A stretch of DNA of 64,000 bases. It comes from a bacterium (GTDB lineage: Bacteria; CAIWAD01). A program made the translations under genes and the position numbers. The stretch is taken from positions 62,001 through 126,000 of the forward strand of contig JAUXWS010000067.1 of the NCBI GenBank assembly GCA_030685015.1. Reading direction: 5' to 3'. Positions 18,555 to 26,386 of the stretch are shown in pieces (position 1 is the first letter of the stretch; the number at the start of each line of letters is the position of its first letter). A model generated the notes under the pieces. That model was not told where the DNA came from, did not search any database, and saw nothing but the letters and a program-made list of their open reading frames with translations.

Positions 18555-20603
18555 ATGACACGCCGAATCCAAGCTCTCGGAGCAGGGCTTTGCCTGCTTC
18601 TGGCCCCCCCCCTTGGAGCGCTTCCCGCCGGCCGCCTGGTCGGGTGGGGCGCCATGACCCAACCCATCGTGGAGCCAGGCACCCGCTACACGGCCGTGAC
18701 CGCCGGTCCAGTGGGTGGCATGGCCCTGGACCGGCAGGGGCGTCCCGTCGGCTGGGGACACTTGCCGCCGGATTCCCCGCCCACCGAGCCGCTGGTGGCC
18801 GTTTCGGCGGGCGGTCGGCATGTTCTGGGCCTGACCGCCGCAGGCCGCGTGGTGGCCTGGGGAGACGACGGTCAGGGGCAGTGCCAGGCGCCCTCCAGTT
18901 CTGATTTCGTGGCCGTGGCGGCGGGCGGATTCCACAGCCTGGCCCTGCGCGGCGACGGCAGCGTGGCGGCCTGGGGCAGCAACCTGGACATGTATGGGGA
19001 GCCTTCCGGCCAGTGTGACGTGCCGGCACCAAACATGGATTTCGTCGCCATCGCGGCCGGGGCGGTGCACAGCCTGGGGCTGAAGCGGGACGGCAGCATT
19101 GTCGCCTGGGGGGCGAACACGGGTGATTTCTACTACCCCATCGATGATCCCGGCCAGTGCCTGGTTCCGGAGCCCAACGAGGGTTTCGTGGCCGTGGCCG
19201 CCGGCCACTTCCACAGCATGGGGCTGAAACAGGACGGCTCCATTGTCACCTGGGGATACTTCGACAGCACGGTCCATCCCGTGCCTGCGCCCAACAGCGG
19301 TTTTGTTGGCATCGCCGGCGGCCTTTTCCTCAACTTGGGGCTGCGGGCGGACGGCAGCCTGGTGCAGTGGGACTGGGGTGGGATGCCACGTCCAGTGCCG
19401 GACCCGGGGCCGGGCTTCACGGCCATCGCCGCCGGCGAGAACCATGCCCTGGCCCTGCGCTCCGATGGAACCCTGGTCGCCTGGGGGGACAATACCTTGG
19501 GGCAGTCCATGATTCCCGATCCGGCCCCGTCCCTGGTCGCCGTGTCCGCCGGGGGATTGAACGCCCTGGCCCTGGGCGAGGATGGCATCCTGCGGGGTTG
19601 GGGCCAGGCCATGGATTGGGTCGGCGGTCGTGTGCCCATGCCGCTGCCCCAACCCAACCAGCAGATCCGCGCTCTGGCCGCCGGTCCCACCCACAATCTG
19701 GCCGTGGGCTTGGACGGGGTGGTGCGCTGCGGCGGCTGGGACTTTTTCGGCGAATGCAGCGTGCCGCCGCCCAACCAGGGCTATCTCGAGGTGGCGGCCG
19801 GCTGGCACTTCAGCCTTGGCCTGAGGGAGGGCGGCGTTGTTGAGGCCTGGGGCAACGACGATGAGGGGCAGTGCCAGGTGCCCGCCGCTGCCCAGAACGC
19901 CGTGGCCCTGGCGGCTGGCTGGGCCCACGGCCTGGCCCTGCGCGGCGACGGCTCGATTGTCGCCTGGGGCGATGACGGCAACGGGCAGGGCCGGCCGCCG
20001 GAGGACAACAGGGGCTTCACGGCCATCGCGGCGGGGGCGTGGCACAACCTGGCGCTGCGCGATGATGGCTCGATCACGGCCTGGGGCGCCAGCCATGCCG
20101 GCCAGTGCGCCGTGCCTGTACCCAATGAAGGGTTCGTGGCGGTGGCGGCCGGGGAGGACCACAGCGTCGGGTTGAAGGCGGACGGACGGGTGGTGGCCTG
20201 GGGGGCCAACGACCGTGGCCAATGTGCGGTGCCGGATCCCAGCGGCGGATACATGGCGATTGCGGCGGGCTGGGGCTTCACCGTGGCGCTGCGGGCGTCG
20301 GAGGCGGTGCCGCTGGCCCCGGTGACGGACCTGCGTGCCAGCTGGACGGTCGGCGGTCTGCGGCTGGACTGGTCGGCGCCGGCCACGGATGTCAATGGTG
20401 CGGCGCCGGTGGTGGTTGAAGGCTACGAATTGCACGCCTCCAGCAGCCCCTGGTTCACGCCGCAGGCAGCGACACGGCTGGTCGTGCTGGCGGAGCCCGG
20501 TTGTTGGCTTCCGGCCGGCGCCTCGGGGCCGCCGGCGCAGTTTCTGCGGGTGGTCGCCCTTGGCCGCGGTCCCTGGCTGTCCCGCGCCGCCCAAGCTGAA
20601 TGA
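18555..20603 (+). CDS. Secreted RCC1-repeat (beta-propeller) protein with C-terminal fibronectin type III domain
   Basis: 682 residues with a signal peptide (about 1-23, ending LGALPAG). About fourteen RCC1-type repeats follow, each with a variant of VAAGxxHSLGLKxDGSIVAWG and often ending GQCxVP, from about residue 28 to 580; this predicts one or two beta-propellers. Residues about 585-680 form a fibronectin type III-like domain (LRASWTVGGLRLDWSAP). No FlgD/T9SS tail is seen, unlike the proteases in this window. RCC1 propellers in bacteria are usually extracellular binding scaffolds; no enzymatic motif is visible. ATG 18555 is the only good start. Confidence 0.85.
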   Translation: MTRRIQALGAGLCLLLAPPLGALPAGRLVGWGAMTQPIVEPGTRYTAVTAGPVGGMALDRQGRPVGWGHLPPDSPPTEPLVAVSAGGRHVLGLTAAGRVVAWGDDGQGQCQAPSSSDFVAVAAGGFHSLALRGDGSVAAWGSNLDMYGEPSGQCDVPAPNMDFVAIAAGAVHSLGLKRDGSIVAWGANTGDFYYPIDDPGQCLVPEPNEGFVAVAAGHFHSMGLKQDGSIVTWGYFDSTVHPVPAPNSGFVGIAGGLFLNLGLRADGSLVQWDWGGMPRPVPDPGPGFTAIAAGENHALALRSDGTLVAWGDNTLGQSMIPDPAPSLVAVSAGGLNALALGEDGILRGWGQAMDWVGGRVPMPLPQPNQQIRALAAGPTHNLAVGLDGVVRCGGWDFFGECSVPPPNQGYLEVAAGWHFSLGLREGGVVEAWGNDDEGQCQVPAAAQNAVALAAGWAHGLALRGDGSIVAWGDDGNGQGRPPEDNRGFTAIAAGAWHNLALRDDGSITAWGASHAGQCAVPVPNEGFVAVAAGEDHSVGLKADGRVVAWGANDRGQCAVPDPSGGYMAIAAGWGFTVALRASEAVPLAPVTDLRASWTVGGLRLDWSAPATDVNGAAPVVVEGYELHASSSPWFTPQAATRLVVLAEPGCWLPAGASGPPAQFLRVVALGRGPWLSRAAQAE

Positions 20604-22994: not shown

Positions 22995-23199
22995 ATGGAA
23001 AGGACATACCAGCATCTTTCGCCTGAAGAACGCACCGTCATTTCCTGAAGCGTTCAGAGGGCAAAGGTCCTCGGGCCATTGGCCGAGTCCTGCACCGCGA
23101 TCCCGGCACGATCAGCCGGGAGCTGAAGGGGAACACCTGGCTGACAAGCCCTATGACGCCAGGCGTGCGGGGCTGCGCGCATCGCCGGGACTTTGATGC
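22995..23199 (+). pseudogene. Degenerate IS30-family transposase, N-terminal remnant
   Basis: Translated in pieces, this gives the N-terminal HTH region of IS30 transposases: MERTYQHLSPEERTVI in one frame, stopped by TGA, then KGPRAIGRVLHRDPGTISRE in a second frame, then YDARRAGLRAS in a third. At least two frameshifts and a stop break it, and the DDE catalytic part is absent. It lies 55 bases before the DGR target gene, so an insertion sequence once adjoined the retroelement. Confidence 0.7.
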
Positions 23200-23253
23200 T
23201 GACATGAGTTGAGACTTGGGTTGGGAGTTGCACTGACCAAGGTTGGGGGTTGT

Positions 23254-24174
23254 ATGCGGATGACCATGCGCACGGTGTTGCCAACTGCCCTGCTGGGCGC
23301 CCTGCTCGCGGGATGCGGAGGGGGATCCTCCGAAACGAGCGCTCCGATCCTTGGCTTTGCTTCGAGCGAGCGCGGACCCCTGCCGGGCATGCGCTTCGTC
23401 AAGATCAAAGCGGGATCCTTCATGATGGGCAGCAGCAATGAAGAGATCGCCTACTGGCAGGCCCATCCCCCGGTGGAGGAGCTTGCATTCTTAAAGGTGA
23501 CCCCTGCGGATTGGCGTACATGGGTGGCGGTCGAGGGACCACAGCATGAAGTGCGCGTCAGCACCTTCCAGCTGATGACGACGGAGGTGACGCAGGCCCA
23601 GTGGCAGGCCTTGATGGGCGACAATCCATCCTTCAACAAGGGTGGCGACTTGCCGGTGGAGCAGGTCAGTTGGCAGGATGTGCAGGGCTTTTTGGCTGAG
23701 ATCAACCGTCGTGATTCGTCCTTTCACTATCGCCTGCCCACGGAGGCGGAGTGGGAGTACGCTTGCCGGGCGGGGTCGACCGGCTCCTGGAGCTGCGGCA
23801 ATGACGAGGAGTCGCTGAAGGACATTGCCTGGTATTGGAGAACCAGTGGTGATGTGGTGCTGGGCGGCAACTGGGACGTAGGCCGCATCCGGTCCAACAA
23901 CCCCCGGACCCATCCCGTGGGGGCCAAGTCGCCCAATGCCTGGGGTCTGTACGACATGCACGGCAATGTCTGGGAGTGGTGCGCGGATTGGTACGGGCCC
24001 TACGCGGCGGAGGCGCAGCGGGATCCCACCGGCCCTTACAGCGGCTCCCGTCGCGTCTATCGGGGCGGCGACGCCGCCAGTGGCGCGGCGGGTCTGCGCG
24101 CAGCCTACCGCGACTTCCGGGGTGCCGAGCGACCGCGCCGGTGGCCTGGGTTTCCGTCTCTGCAGGACCGTTAA
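23254..24174 (+). CDS. DGR target: lipoprotein with FGE/C-type-lectin-like fold, variable C-terminus
   Basis: 306-residue lipoprotein: signal with lipobox LLAGC, Cys21 as the lipidation site. Residues about 45-306 are a formylglycine-generating-enzyme-sulfatase (SUMF1) fold, a C-type-lectin relative used as scaffold by many DGR targets: MRFVKIKAGSFMMGS, TEVTQAQWQALMGDNPS, VSWQDVQGFL, YRLPTEAEWEYA and WGLYDMHGNVWEWC. The last 44 residues are encoded by the variable repeat. One extra G in the GGGG run at 24119-24122 shifts the frame, so the protein ends WPGFPSLQDR instead of the canonical GLGFRLCRTVNP, which the adjacent frame would give (stop 24179-24181). ATG 23254 is a few bases after a GGGGG run. 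A surface-displayed binding protein is the expected role. Confidence 0.88.
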   Translation: MRMTMRTVLPTALLGALLAGCGGGSSETSAPILGFASSERGPLPGMRFVKIKAGSFMMGSSNEEIAYWQAHPPVEELAFLKVTPADWRTWVAVEGPQHEVRVSTFQLMTTEVTQAQWQALMGDNPSFNKGGDLPVEQVSWQDVQGFLAEINRRDSSFHYRLPTEAEWEYACRAGSTGSWSCGNDEESLKDIAWYWRTSGDVVLGGNWDVGRIRSNNPRTHPVGAKSPNAWGLYDMHGNVWEWCADWYGPYAAEAQRDPTGPYSGSRRVYRGGDAASGAAGLRAAYRDFRGAERPRRWPGFPSLQDR

Positions 24175-24175
24175 C
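24041..24175 (+). repeat. DGR variable repeat (VR)
   Basis: 135 bases aligning to the template repeat at 26147-26280. Between the shared 5' segment GCGGCTCCC and the shared 3' segment starting at 24146, I count by eye 18 substitutions opposite template adenines, three opposite other bases (two T to G, one C to G), and one inserted base. It encodes the C-terminal 44 residues of the target lipoprotein. Confidence 0.92.
24146..24165 (+). other. Putative initiation-of-mutagenic-homing (IMH) segment
   Basis: Twenty bases identical to 26251-26270 at the 3' end of the TR, starting CTGGGTTTCC. The following base differs (G in VR, C in TR), as expected for an IMH/IMH* pair that makes retrohoming directional. 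It would encode GFRLC in the template frame. Confidence 0.7.
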
Positions 24176-24220
24176 CCTTAGCTCTCTTACCCTCTTACCC
24201 TTTGCTGCGATGGGCGGGGT

Positions 24221-24278
24221 GGTCGACCGGGCGCCGCCCGCCCGAGCGAAGCCGGGGCGAGGTGGCGCCCGGTCGACC
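24221..24278 (+). repeat. Inverted repeat downstream of the VR
   Basis: Perfect 15-base inverted repeat GGTCGACCGGGCGCC (24221-24235) and its complement (24264-24278) around a 28-base spacer, 45 bases after the VR. In studied DGRs a hairpin or cruciform just after the VR promotes homing; this is farther and larger. It could equally be a terminator for the target gene. The polypyrimidine stretch 24176-24206 with a tandem CTCTTACC lies between VR and repeat. Confidence 0.6.
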
Positions 24279-24318
24279 GCGCGGGTGGACAGGATCGAGC
24301 TTTTCTTAGGAGTGACGT

Positions 24319-24834
24319 GTGACCGTGCGCATCATCACGATTCCCTTCGACCGGGAACGAGGGATTTTTCCAGAGGAGGAGTTGAATCGCTTCTGCGCGG
24401 CTCGCCAGGTGCTGCACAAACGGCCGGAGTTTTTCTCGCACCAGGGGCGTGCCTGGTGGACGGTGTGGTTGGAGGTCGAGGAGGTCGAACCGGGTCAATC
24501 GATTCCGGAAGGGCTGAATGCGGCCCAAGCAGGTATTTTGAAACGGTTGCGCGAGTGGCGCATGCAGGTCGCGGACAAGGCGGGTCTGCCCGCCTACGTG
24601 GTGTTGACCAACCGGGAGCTTGAAGAGGTGGCCCGACGAAAACCCGGCACCCTGGAGGCGCTACGCGGCATCCATGGCTTGGGTCAGAAGAAGCTGGCCC
24701 GTTACGGCAAGGCCATCCTGGCCCTGGTGTCGGAGACGGGTCCGCCCACGCTCGAGGTCACGCAGGCAATGGACCGTGAACCGCCTGCTGAAGCTGAGCC
24801 ACCCGCTGCCACGGAGACGGCTGAGCATGCATGA
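24319..24834 (+). CDS. HRDC domain protein, DGR accessory gene
   Basis: 171-residue protein. Residues about 73-146 form an HRDC domain (helicase and RNase D C-terminal; LREWRMQVADKAGLPAYVVLTN, then LEALRGIHGLGQKKLARYG), a small helical nucleic-acid-binding module. The N-terminal 60 residues (IITIPFDRERGIFPEEELNRF) are typical of the HRDC proteins found beside DGR reverse transcriptases. HRDC genes are a known but less common DGR accessory class, sometimes instead of avd; here both are present. GTG 24319 is six bases after TAGGAG. Its end overlaps avd by 8 bases. Confidence 0.85.
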   Translation: MTVRIITIPFDRERGIFPEEELNRFCAARQVLHKRPEFFSHQGRAWWTVWLEVEEVEPGQSIPEGLNAAQAGILKRLREWRMQVADKAGLPAYVVLTNRELEEVARRKPGTLEALRGIHGLGQKKLARYGKAILALVSETGPPTLEVTQAMDREPPAEAEPPAATETAEHA

Positions 24835-25168
24835 GGCCGCGCCGCTTCTGGAGCATTGGAATCGCTTCCTCGACTGGCTGCTGGATCGCCTGGAGCGCTT
24901 TCCCCGGGATGCGCGCTTCACCATCAGCCAGCGCATGGCCAACTTGGCCCTGGACGCCTTGGAGGCCATCATCGAGGCGGCCTACACCAAGGACCGTGTG
25001 CCCATTCTGCGCCGCCTGAATTTGATTCTGGAGAAGCTTCGCGTGATGGTGCGGATCAGCCATCGACGCCGCTACCTCAGCACGGACCAGTACGAACATG
25101 CTGCCGAGAACCTGCTCACCATTGGCCGCATGGTCGGCGGTTGGTTGCGACATGCTGCCGCAGGGTGA
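24827..25168 (+). CDS. avd: DGR accessory variability determinant (Avd)
   Basis: 113-residue helical protein, of the usual length for Avd (four-helix bundle, S23-like fold that forms a basic pentamer and binds the RT and TR RNA). Helices are visible at about 2-22 (LLEHWNRFLDWLLDRLERFP), 27-48 (ISQRMANLALDALEAIIEAAY), 53-80 and 84-110 (TDQYEHAAENLLTIGRMVGGWLR). Start ATG 24827 lies inside the end of the HRDC gene, and the RT start lies 17 bases before its stop, so the three proteins are probably made together in set ratio. It lies in a region where other frames are also open, but this frame gives the family pattern. Confidence 0.88.
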   Translation: MHEAAPLLEHWNRFLDWLLDRLERFPRDARFTISQRMANLALDALEAIIEAAYTKDRVPILRRLNLILEKLRVMVRISHRRRYLSTDQYEHAAENLLTIGRMVGGWLRHAAAG

Positions 25169-26228
25169 TTTGTTTAACCAGCTCGCGTCCTTCGCCTGGC
25201 TGCTGGAGGCATGGCGTCGAGTGCGGCGGGGAGCCGGCAAGACACGGGTATCCGTGGAATTCGAGTTCAATTTGGAGCAGGAGCTGCTCGACCTGCGCGA
25301 TGAGCTGCGCAGCGGCACATGGAAGCCCGCAGGGTATCGTTACTTCACGATCAAGGAACCAAAGGAACGCTTGATCGCCGCGGCGCCCTTGCGCGACCGC
25401 ATCGTACACCACGCCGTGGTCGGGCTGCTGGAACCGATTTATGAGGAGCGTTTCATCGAAGACTCCTACGCGACGCGCAAGGGAAAGGGTATGCACCTGG
25501 CAGTGTGCCGCGCCCAGGAGTTGGTGAGGCGGCATCGCTGGCATTTGAAGGTCGACATTCGCCAGTATTTCCCCAGCGTTGATCTGGATCGTCTCGGCCT
25601 GCAACTGCGCCAAGACATTGGTTCGGATCCCATCATCGATGTCCTGGAGCGCATCCTGCGCTGCGATCCGAGTCGACCCGGCCTGCCCATCGGCAACCTG
25701 ACCAGCCAGTTTCTCGCCAACGTCTACCTGAACGGGTTTGATCACTGGGTGCAGGATGAACTGCGTCCGGCAGGCTATGTGCGCTACATGGACGACATGG
25801 TCTTCTTTCATGACGATCGGTCCGCGCTGAAGAAAATGTTGCCGGAGGCGAGCGGGTGGTTGACCATGCAGCGCGGTCTGCGCTTGAAGGAATCGGCCAC
25901 TCGAATCAACCAGCGGAACCACGGCCTGGGCTTCCTGGGTGTCAGGATCTTCCCGGAGTTGATCCGGGTGCGGAGAGAGAGCTTGCGTCGGTGTCTGCAG
26001 CGATTGTCGCGACGCGAGTGGCAATATCAATCAGGGTGGCTGTCCGAGGACGAGCTTGCCGTCTGTGCGCAGAGCGCCGTGGCGCACCTCGCACACTGGA
26101 ACAGCCATGCATTACGACGATCGATCTTCAAGGGCGATCATCATCGGCGGCTCCCATCGCGTCAATCGGGGCGGCGACTACACCAATGCCGCGGCGAATC
26201 TGCGCGCAGCCAACCGCGACAACAATGA
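25152..26228 (+). CDS. DGR reverse transcriptase
   Basis: 358-residue reverse transcriptase that would copy TR RNA into adenine-mutated cDNA. Seen directly: DLFNQLASFAWLLEAWRR start, the catalytic Asp135 in LKVDIRQYFPSV, the DGR-specific IGNLTSQ motif at 180-186 (other RTs have QGxxxSP), and YMDD at 212-215. C-terminal thumb to about residue 330 (LAHWNSHALRRSIF). ATG 25152 gives a natural start and 17-base overlap with avd. The stop codon at 26226-26228 lies inside the TR, so about the last 27 codons (from 26147) are TR sequence; that tail is Arg-rich and not conserved-looking. No maturase or integrase domain. Confidence 0.93.
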   Translation: MLPQGDLFNQLASFAWLLEAWRRVRRGAGKTRVSVEFEFNLEQELLDLRDELRSGTWKPAGYRYFTIKEPKERLIAAAPLRDRIVHHAVVGLLEPIYEERFIEDSYATRKGKGMHLAVCRAQELVRRHRWHLKVDIRQYFPSVDLDRLGLQLRQDIGSDPIIDVLERILRCDPSRPGLPIGNLTSQFLANVYLNGFDHWVQDELRPAGYVRYMDDMVFFHDDRSALKKMLPEASGWLTMQRGLRLKESATRINQRNHGLGFLGVRIFPELIRVRRESLRRCLQRLSRREWQYQSGWLSEDELAVCAQSAVAHLAHWNSHALRRSIFKGDHHRRLPSRQSGRRLHQCRGESARSQPRQQ

Positions 26229-26280
26229 GCCGAGCAACCGCGACAATGACCTGGGTTTCCGTCTCTGCAGCACCGTTGAC
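26147..26280 (+). repeat. DGR template repeat (TR)
   Basis: 134-base template for VR diversification. Eight AAY codons in the target reading frame provide 16 of its 26 variable-segment adenines, 18 of which differ in the VR. Read in the target frame it gives a canonical ending, RGGDYTN...NRDNNEPSNRDND-LGFRLC. Its first 82 bases overlap the RT coding sequence in another frame. The 3' end 26251-26270 is identical to the VR end. Confidence 0.92.
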
Positions 26281-26290
26281 GGGCTGATTC

Positions 26291-26310
26291 GCAACCTCCA
26301 TGGATGTTGC
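26291..26310 (+). other. Near-palindrome just after the TR
   Basis: GCAAC-CTCCATGGAT-GTTGC with only one mismatched pair around a CCATGG core, 10 bases after the TR. It may fold in the TR transcript, where flanking RNA is known to bind Avd and RT in the studied Bordetella element; here that is inference. Confidence 0.35.
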
Positions 26311-26386
26311 GACCGTGTGGCTTGACCACGTTCCACCAGCGGTCCCGATGATCGTCCCGCCCTGCTGACATAGGCAGGCAAAGAGA

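Follow-up and report, generated by a model that had tools for sequence, protein, structure and literature searches.

The 64,000-nucleotide stretch of DNA analysed here (the window) contains a chromosomal diversity-generating retroelement (DGR) that very probably (probability about 0.93) diversifies a predicted lipoprotein gene at its 3' end by mutagenic retrohoming, as in Bordetella phage BPP-1. The complete element, including both of its hairpins, occupies window positions 23254-26312, all on the + strand. An earlier note had proposed a target gene with VR, an HRDC gene, avd, a reverse transcriptase (RT) and TR in that order on one strand. All are present on the + strand at 23254-26281, and both the FGE-fold lipoprotein nature of the target and the IGNLTSQ and YMDD motifs of a DGR-type RT were recovered. 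The features are:

23254-24174, + strand: target gene, predicted lipoprotein with lipobox LLAGC and a C-terminal FGE / C-type-lectin fold (PF03781, 1.4e-42)
24043-24173, + strand: VR1 (alignment to TR1 and adenine statistics)
24221-24278, + strand: target-site DNA hairpin (DNA fold z -5.3)
24319-24834, + strand: HRDC-domain accessory gene (PF00570, 4.8e-22)
24827-25168, + strand: avd, accessory variability determinant (NF033474, 2.6e-29, above cut-off; PF22296, 5.2e-21; PHROG Avd, 1.6e-24)
25152-26228, + strand: DGR reverse transcriptase RT1, motifs IGNLTSQ and YMDD (PHROG RT, 3.2e-100; tree)
26149-26281, + strand: TR1 (repeat match to VR1)
26289-26312, + strand: conserved RNA hairpin directly 3' of TR1 (covariation; covariance model match 26268-26360)

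The reading frames of all three cassette genes (HRDC, avd and RT1) are open. The RT gene runs into TR1 over its final ~80 nt; this overlap, the frameshift in VR1 and the cis elements at 24221-24278 and 26289-26312 were absent from the earlier note. The solved structure nearest to the target protein is the T. denticola variable protein 2y3c (TvpA; 5.7e-24). DGR1 lies next to a multihaem cytochrome-like gene, purB and enolase, and no sign of a prophage was found around it.

The match between TR1 and VR1 is beyond chance, with a blastn E of 8e-34 within the window and 9e-32 genome-wide. Within the window the next matches to TR1 after VR1 are at chance level only, and in the whole genome TR2, the template of a second cassette, is the sole other significant match. 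From TR1 to VR1, 18 of the 27 template adenines are changed, as against 3 of 95 other positions (Fisher p 3e-12). If VR1 is taken as the template instead, 0 of 9 VR adenines differ; adenine specificity is seen only with 26149-26281 as template. The conserved 20-mer CTGGGTTTCCGTCTCTGCAG is found in VR1 at 24146-24165 (IMH-like) and in TR1 at 26251-26270 (IMH*-like), and the base right after it is G in VR1 and C in TR1. An identical C-to-G difference past the 20-mer distinguishes CTGCAGCACC, found in both TRs of the genome, from CTGCAGGAC, found in all three VRs. In BPP-1 the IMH/IMH* difference sets the direction of transfer, and the C-to-G difference is a candidate equivalent.

The genome is a draft metagenome-style assembly of 3.6 Mb in 105 contigs. 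A second HRDC-avd-RT-TR cassette (DGR2), with an RT (RT2) that is 61% identical to RT1, is located on contig C86, and its TR2 matches VRs on two other contigs (C88:30580-30704 and C52:3218-3344). The changes between TR2 and the C88 VR affect 26 of 37 adenines and 1 of 88 other bases (p 4e-17); for the C52 VR these values are 22/38 and 10/91 (p 8e-8). Three TR-VR pairs of this genome clearly show the adenine bias, in the direction from TR to VR, which supports the interpretation in the earlier note. The gene on C52 encodes a subtilase-FGE fusion, with a Peptidase_S8 domain (5.9e-27) followed by an FGE domain that has the VR at its end. The C88 VR is followed on its 3' side by a truncated HRDC copy that is 95% identical to the C86 HRDC gene, and a segment of target site and HRDC has therefore been duplicated. 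Contig C86 stops a short way upstream of HRDC, and C52 breaks off within a second FGE gene; the two contigs are presumably neighbours with an unassembled VR between them. FGE genes on C105, C94 and C46 gave no match to TR1 or TR2.

VR1 forms the 3' end of the FGE-fold target gene, and the present allele is frameshifted there. The earlier description of the element as complete therefore holds in that all named parts are present, but with the qualification that the assembled target gene carries a frameshift. Beside a mutated AAC, VR1 carries one extra base (+1 nt; TR1 has GAC-AACAATGAG, VR1 has GACTTCCGGGGTG), and because of this shift the target ORF ends in WPGFPSLQDR* rather than GFRLCRTVNP*. 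Another frame ends in GGLGFRLCRTVNP*, which is the usual end in the FGE family. In the C88 VR, 4 nt are missing beside mutated adenines, which also shifts the frame, and the C52 VR is in frame. The two cognate-style alleles for which a downstream hairpin is known are VR1 and the C88 VR, and both are frameshifted. Among relatives, 8 of 81 TR-VR pairs contain indels, 5 of them frameshifting, and 8/8 lie at or beside mutated adenines. Indels at adenines fit a model in which the mutagenic RT slips, which is also discussed for BPP-1 (PMC12875486), but they could also be consensus artefacts of mixed populations.

These frameshifts bear on two other readings of the locus. The DGR could recently have gone out of use, with RT, avd and TR still intact and the cognate target reduced to a frameshifted pseudogene. 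The +1 insertion in VR1 and the remote C88 VR, with its 4-nt deletion beside a truncated HRDC gene, would be in agreement with such disuse. However, the three cassette proteins are open, the RNA and DNA hairpins both retain pairing, the non-adenine positions of VR1 have changed at just 3 of 95, and the C52 VR is in frame. Frameshifting indels at adenines are moreover also present in 5/81 VRs of relatives, as would be the case with an RT that produces them, and disuse appears rather unlikely. It is somewhat easier to imagine, although still less probable than its opposite, that the VR indels are assembly artefacts, produced when a population with many VR variants was merged into one consensus. 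Hypervariable sites assemble poorly, the assembly is a fragmented draft, and both C86 and C52 break off close to VR sites. Against this, the indels are located at mutated adenines or next to them, not only in this genome but also in all eight cases among relatives. Against the preferred reading, a DGR that diversifies this gene and may still be active, stands that DGR1 is read here only with a frameshifted target allele and not with an intact diversified lipoprotein, and that the same-genus and same-family genomes lack a DGR RT.

A group II intron or retron-type RT standing beside a chance repeat would be a third explanation, and the weak NCBIfam relatives of RT1 are indeed a group II maturase and retron RTs. 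The scores for these families were 135 bits against a cut-off of 300 for the group II maturase TIGR04416 and 60 bits against 235 for the retron St85 RT, and both assignments were rejected. RT1 carries IGNLTSQ instead of QGGxxSP, the avd gene scores above its cut-off and the repeat differences are adenine-specific. A search of species genomes returned 80 related loci and a viral scan 17. A tree of 102 RTs separates DGR RTs from QGGxxSP group II-type RTs with 100% SH-aLRT on the separating branch. RT1 falls inside the DGR RT clade, as the earlier note would have it, and together these results make the intron or retron explanation extremely improbable. RT1 and RT2 group as sisters (100%), and the clade that contains them has 26 rows (100%). 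All 24 scored loci with HRDC genes belong to this clade, with two changes on the tree; judged from this distribution, HRDC marks one RT clade.

Downstream of VR1, by about 55 nt, lies a DNA hairpin (24221-24278) with a stem of ~25 bp and a GCGAAGC apex. This apex motif is confined to three sites of the genome (in the window, C86 and C88), each just 5' of HRDC, and the stem sequences of these target-site hairpins diverge while pairing is preserved. Among related DGRs, 15 of 86 VRs are followed by a stem of 7 bp or more with a GNA or GRNA loop, compared with 14 of 2461 control segments, in scans for near-perfect stems that missed the window's own VR hairpin due to a mismatch near its apex. A hairpin 3' of VR is needed for efficient homing in BPP-1, where the loop sequence matters and the stem sequence does not (PMC3240598). 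The phage VR hairpins have stems of 7-10 bp located 4-34 bp from VR (PMC3240598), with a 4-nt loop in BPP-1. The hairpin in the window is longer and farther from VR than these phage examples, but belongs to the same class of element.

The second hairpin lies in the RNA directly after TR1. In a sequence-only alignment of 20 TR 3' flanks from the HRDC clade, columns 44-53 of a gap-free block pair with columns 58-67, with 93.5% of the cells paired and compensatory changes in 9 of 10 pairs. None of 500 shuffles was as good, all slid controls gave 45-52%, and RNAalifold recovered this helix unprompted. A sequence-only alignment of 20 held-out TR flanks from non-HRDC DGRs again gave a helix with 93.5% paired cells and 9/10 pairs. 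In its own genome the covariance model found only TR1 and TR2 below E 0.1. For held-out loci with the hairpin after TR, the model matches start -10 to +16 nt from the TR end. At L118, L120, L129, L130, L135, L137, L141 and the viral contig L181 the matches instead end 83-133 nt before TR, and RNAalifold gave the same helix in the bacterial loci with the hairpin upstream of TR. In alignment A5 two rows (L144 and L156) without the motif weaken the pair counts. Folded as single sequences, the TR flanks showed no significant RNA structure (z -0.9 and -0.7); the helix became visible only by alignment. A search of Rfam 15 with the window returned only sub-threshold chance matches.

In BPP-1 the spacer 3' of TR folds, recruits bRT-Avd and primes cDNA (PMC12875486), and for this reason the hairpin at 26289-26312 is most likely the counterpart of that scaffold by functional analogy and presumably the core of the spacer RNA. 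BPP-1 has a predicted UACG-loop hairpin at a similar place. Also with the filters switched off, RNA model R1 gave no match to the BPP-1-type spacer; homology to the BPP-1 hairpin is therefore a lead, taken from the predicted fold of BPP-1. At slightly less than even odds, DGR RNAs of many phyla could share an undescribed RT-Avd-recruiting scaffold module, consisting of (G)CCAGA, a 10-bp hairpin with a UU-YACG-GA apex, and CCGUG ... GUCCAG. It would usually lie right after TR, and ~80-130 nt before TR in a clade of Omnitrophota, Elusimicrobiota and Chloroflexota. Since the scaffold follows TR in most loci and precedes it in one clade, template and scaffold would be separable, re-ordered modules. 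This conserved, re-ordered hairpin, not present in Rfam 15, is the feature of the DGR with the best chance of being new.

The proposed mechanism follows the work on BPP-1. The sequence itself shows the parts and their order, the adenine-specific changes, the TR-VR matches in trans and the two hairpins; the assembly of RNA and protein, priming, homing and what the VR hairpin does are carried over from BPP-1. An RNA across TR and the 3' hairpin would be bound by RT-Avd, and the cDNA made from TR would gain random bases opposite template adenines. The mutated cDNA would then take the place of the homologous VR, with the 3' sequence CTGGGTTTCCGTCTCTGCAG that both share and the hairpin downstream of VR as guides. 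The HRDC protein perhaps handles, opens or resolves a hairpin or cruciform at the target. The altered Asn/Asp-type codons are located in the last ~45 residues of the C-type-lectin/FGE fold, and the product would therefore be a set of displayed binding proteins that are variants of a predicted surface lipoprotein.

Comparison with known elements shows the same parts in different arrangements. Like the element in the window, BPP-1 has Avd and RT, mutates adenines, and carries an IMH and a hairpin 3' of VR (PMC3240598), as well as a spacer RNA 3' of TR that recruits bRT-Avd (PMC12875486), but it has no HRDC gene and its TR precedes RT. The Treponema denticola DGR has FGE-fold lipoprotein targets (TvpA) and an HRDC accessory gene (PMC4891356). 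Its gene order differs from that in the window because HRDC sits between TR and RT (PMC4891356). Closest in layout is the DGR on plasmid pPAES01 of Prosthecochloris aestuarii DSM 271 (NC_011061, L188), which has the order FGE target, HRDC, Avd, RT, together with an Asn-rich, TR-like repeat, the conserved RNA hairpin downstream of RT, and an RT of the HRDC clade. It differs in being on a conjugative plasmid, in having a second FGE gene downstream, and in its RT, which is about 42% identical. Cyanobacterial and Thiohalocapsa PB-PSB1 DGR sets resemble this genome in having more than one DGR and trans targets per genome. Peptidase-CLec fusions are reported there; those named are orthocaspase-like, kinase or STAND NTPase, whereas the fusion in this genome is an S8 subtilase. 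RT, avd and architecture thus match known DGRs, in line with the earlier view that the component families, and hence the kind of system, are known. The suggestion that element and host combination may be undescribed stands in part, as the individual element in this phylum is probably new but FGE-HRDC-Avd-RT is a widespread architecture (24 scored loci) that occurs on the annotated plasmid pPAES01 too.

The genome has 93 matches to T9SS C-terminal sorting domains, which is consistent with the FCB-type host proposed earlier. Its phylum is sparsely sampled (5 genomes in the set compared). The four other genomes of this set have no DGR-like RT, one of them carrying a 29%-identical RT with a group II-type motif, and a DGR RT was found neither in the same-genus nor in the same-family genome. 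In the sister species (G001) an orthologous FGE gene ending in GFRLCFTP* lies between the same neighbours (the cytochrome-like gene and purB) and is followed by an ATPase-like ORF, with no DGR part at the locus. Either a resident FGE gene of the present lineage gained the DGR on its downstream side, or G001 lost the DGR.

The finding extends DGRs to a phylum with 5 genomes in the set compared. It also provides a comparative case with two diverged cassettes, three VRs, one of them part of a subtilase fusion, and a sister species that has the target ortholog without a DGR, so that the effect of DGR gain or loss on a resident gene is open to study. The greater gain lies in the RNA. The importance of the spacer RNA is established for BPP-1; a covariation consensus that recognises it across DGR clades would help to find template RNAs without a VR and would make recognition of the scaffold by RT-Avd testable.

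The conserved RNA hairpin of these retroelements is located 83-133 nt upstream of the template repeat (TR), after avd and not after TR, in six loci of one clade and in L181. The loci with this arrangement represent the Omnitrophota/Elusimicrobiota/Chloroflexota clade of reverse transcriptases (RT), plus one viral contig.

L118:2112-2215, RNA hairpin upstream of TR
L120:5606-5706, RNA hairpin upstream of TR
L129:654-755, RNA hairpin upstream of TR
L135:5644-5706, RNA hairpin upstream of TR
L137:5623-5722, RNA hairpin upstream of TR
L141:2598-2698, RNA hairpin upstream of TR
L181:4709-4784, RNA hairpin upstream of TR

The variable repeats (VRs) of five related elements (L097, L106, L121, L126, L128) carry frameshifting indels of 1-2 nt, each at or beside mutated adenines, which is a possible signature of RT slippage.

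Directly upstream of the target gene in the window lies the degraded start of an IS30-type transposase (22996-23200; HTH_38, 8.7e-9). A 682-aa ORF (18555-20603) is made up of RCC1-like repeats (VAAGxxHSLALRxDGSVVAWG), as judged by eye only. The orthologous locus of the sister species also has an FGE gene (L196, G001:C172:70000-77000). What comes after this gene there is not a retroelement but an ATPase-like ORF encoded on the opposite strand.

Two other contigs of the source genome carry FGE genes with a VR.

C88 (L080:2327-5157), in this order: tyrosine recombinase gene; FGE target, frameshifted and carrying a VR; target-site hairpin; truncated copy of HRDC
C52 (L081:280-3354), S8 subtilase-FGE fusion of 1024 aa

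The C-terminal VR of the fusion matches the template of the genome's second retroelement, and the protein may be a protease whose binding domain is diversified.
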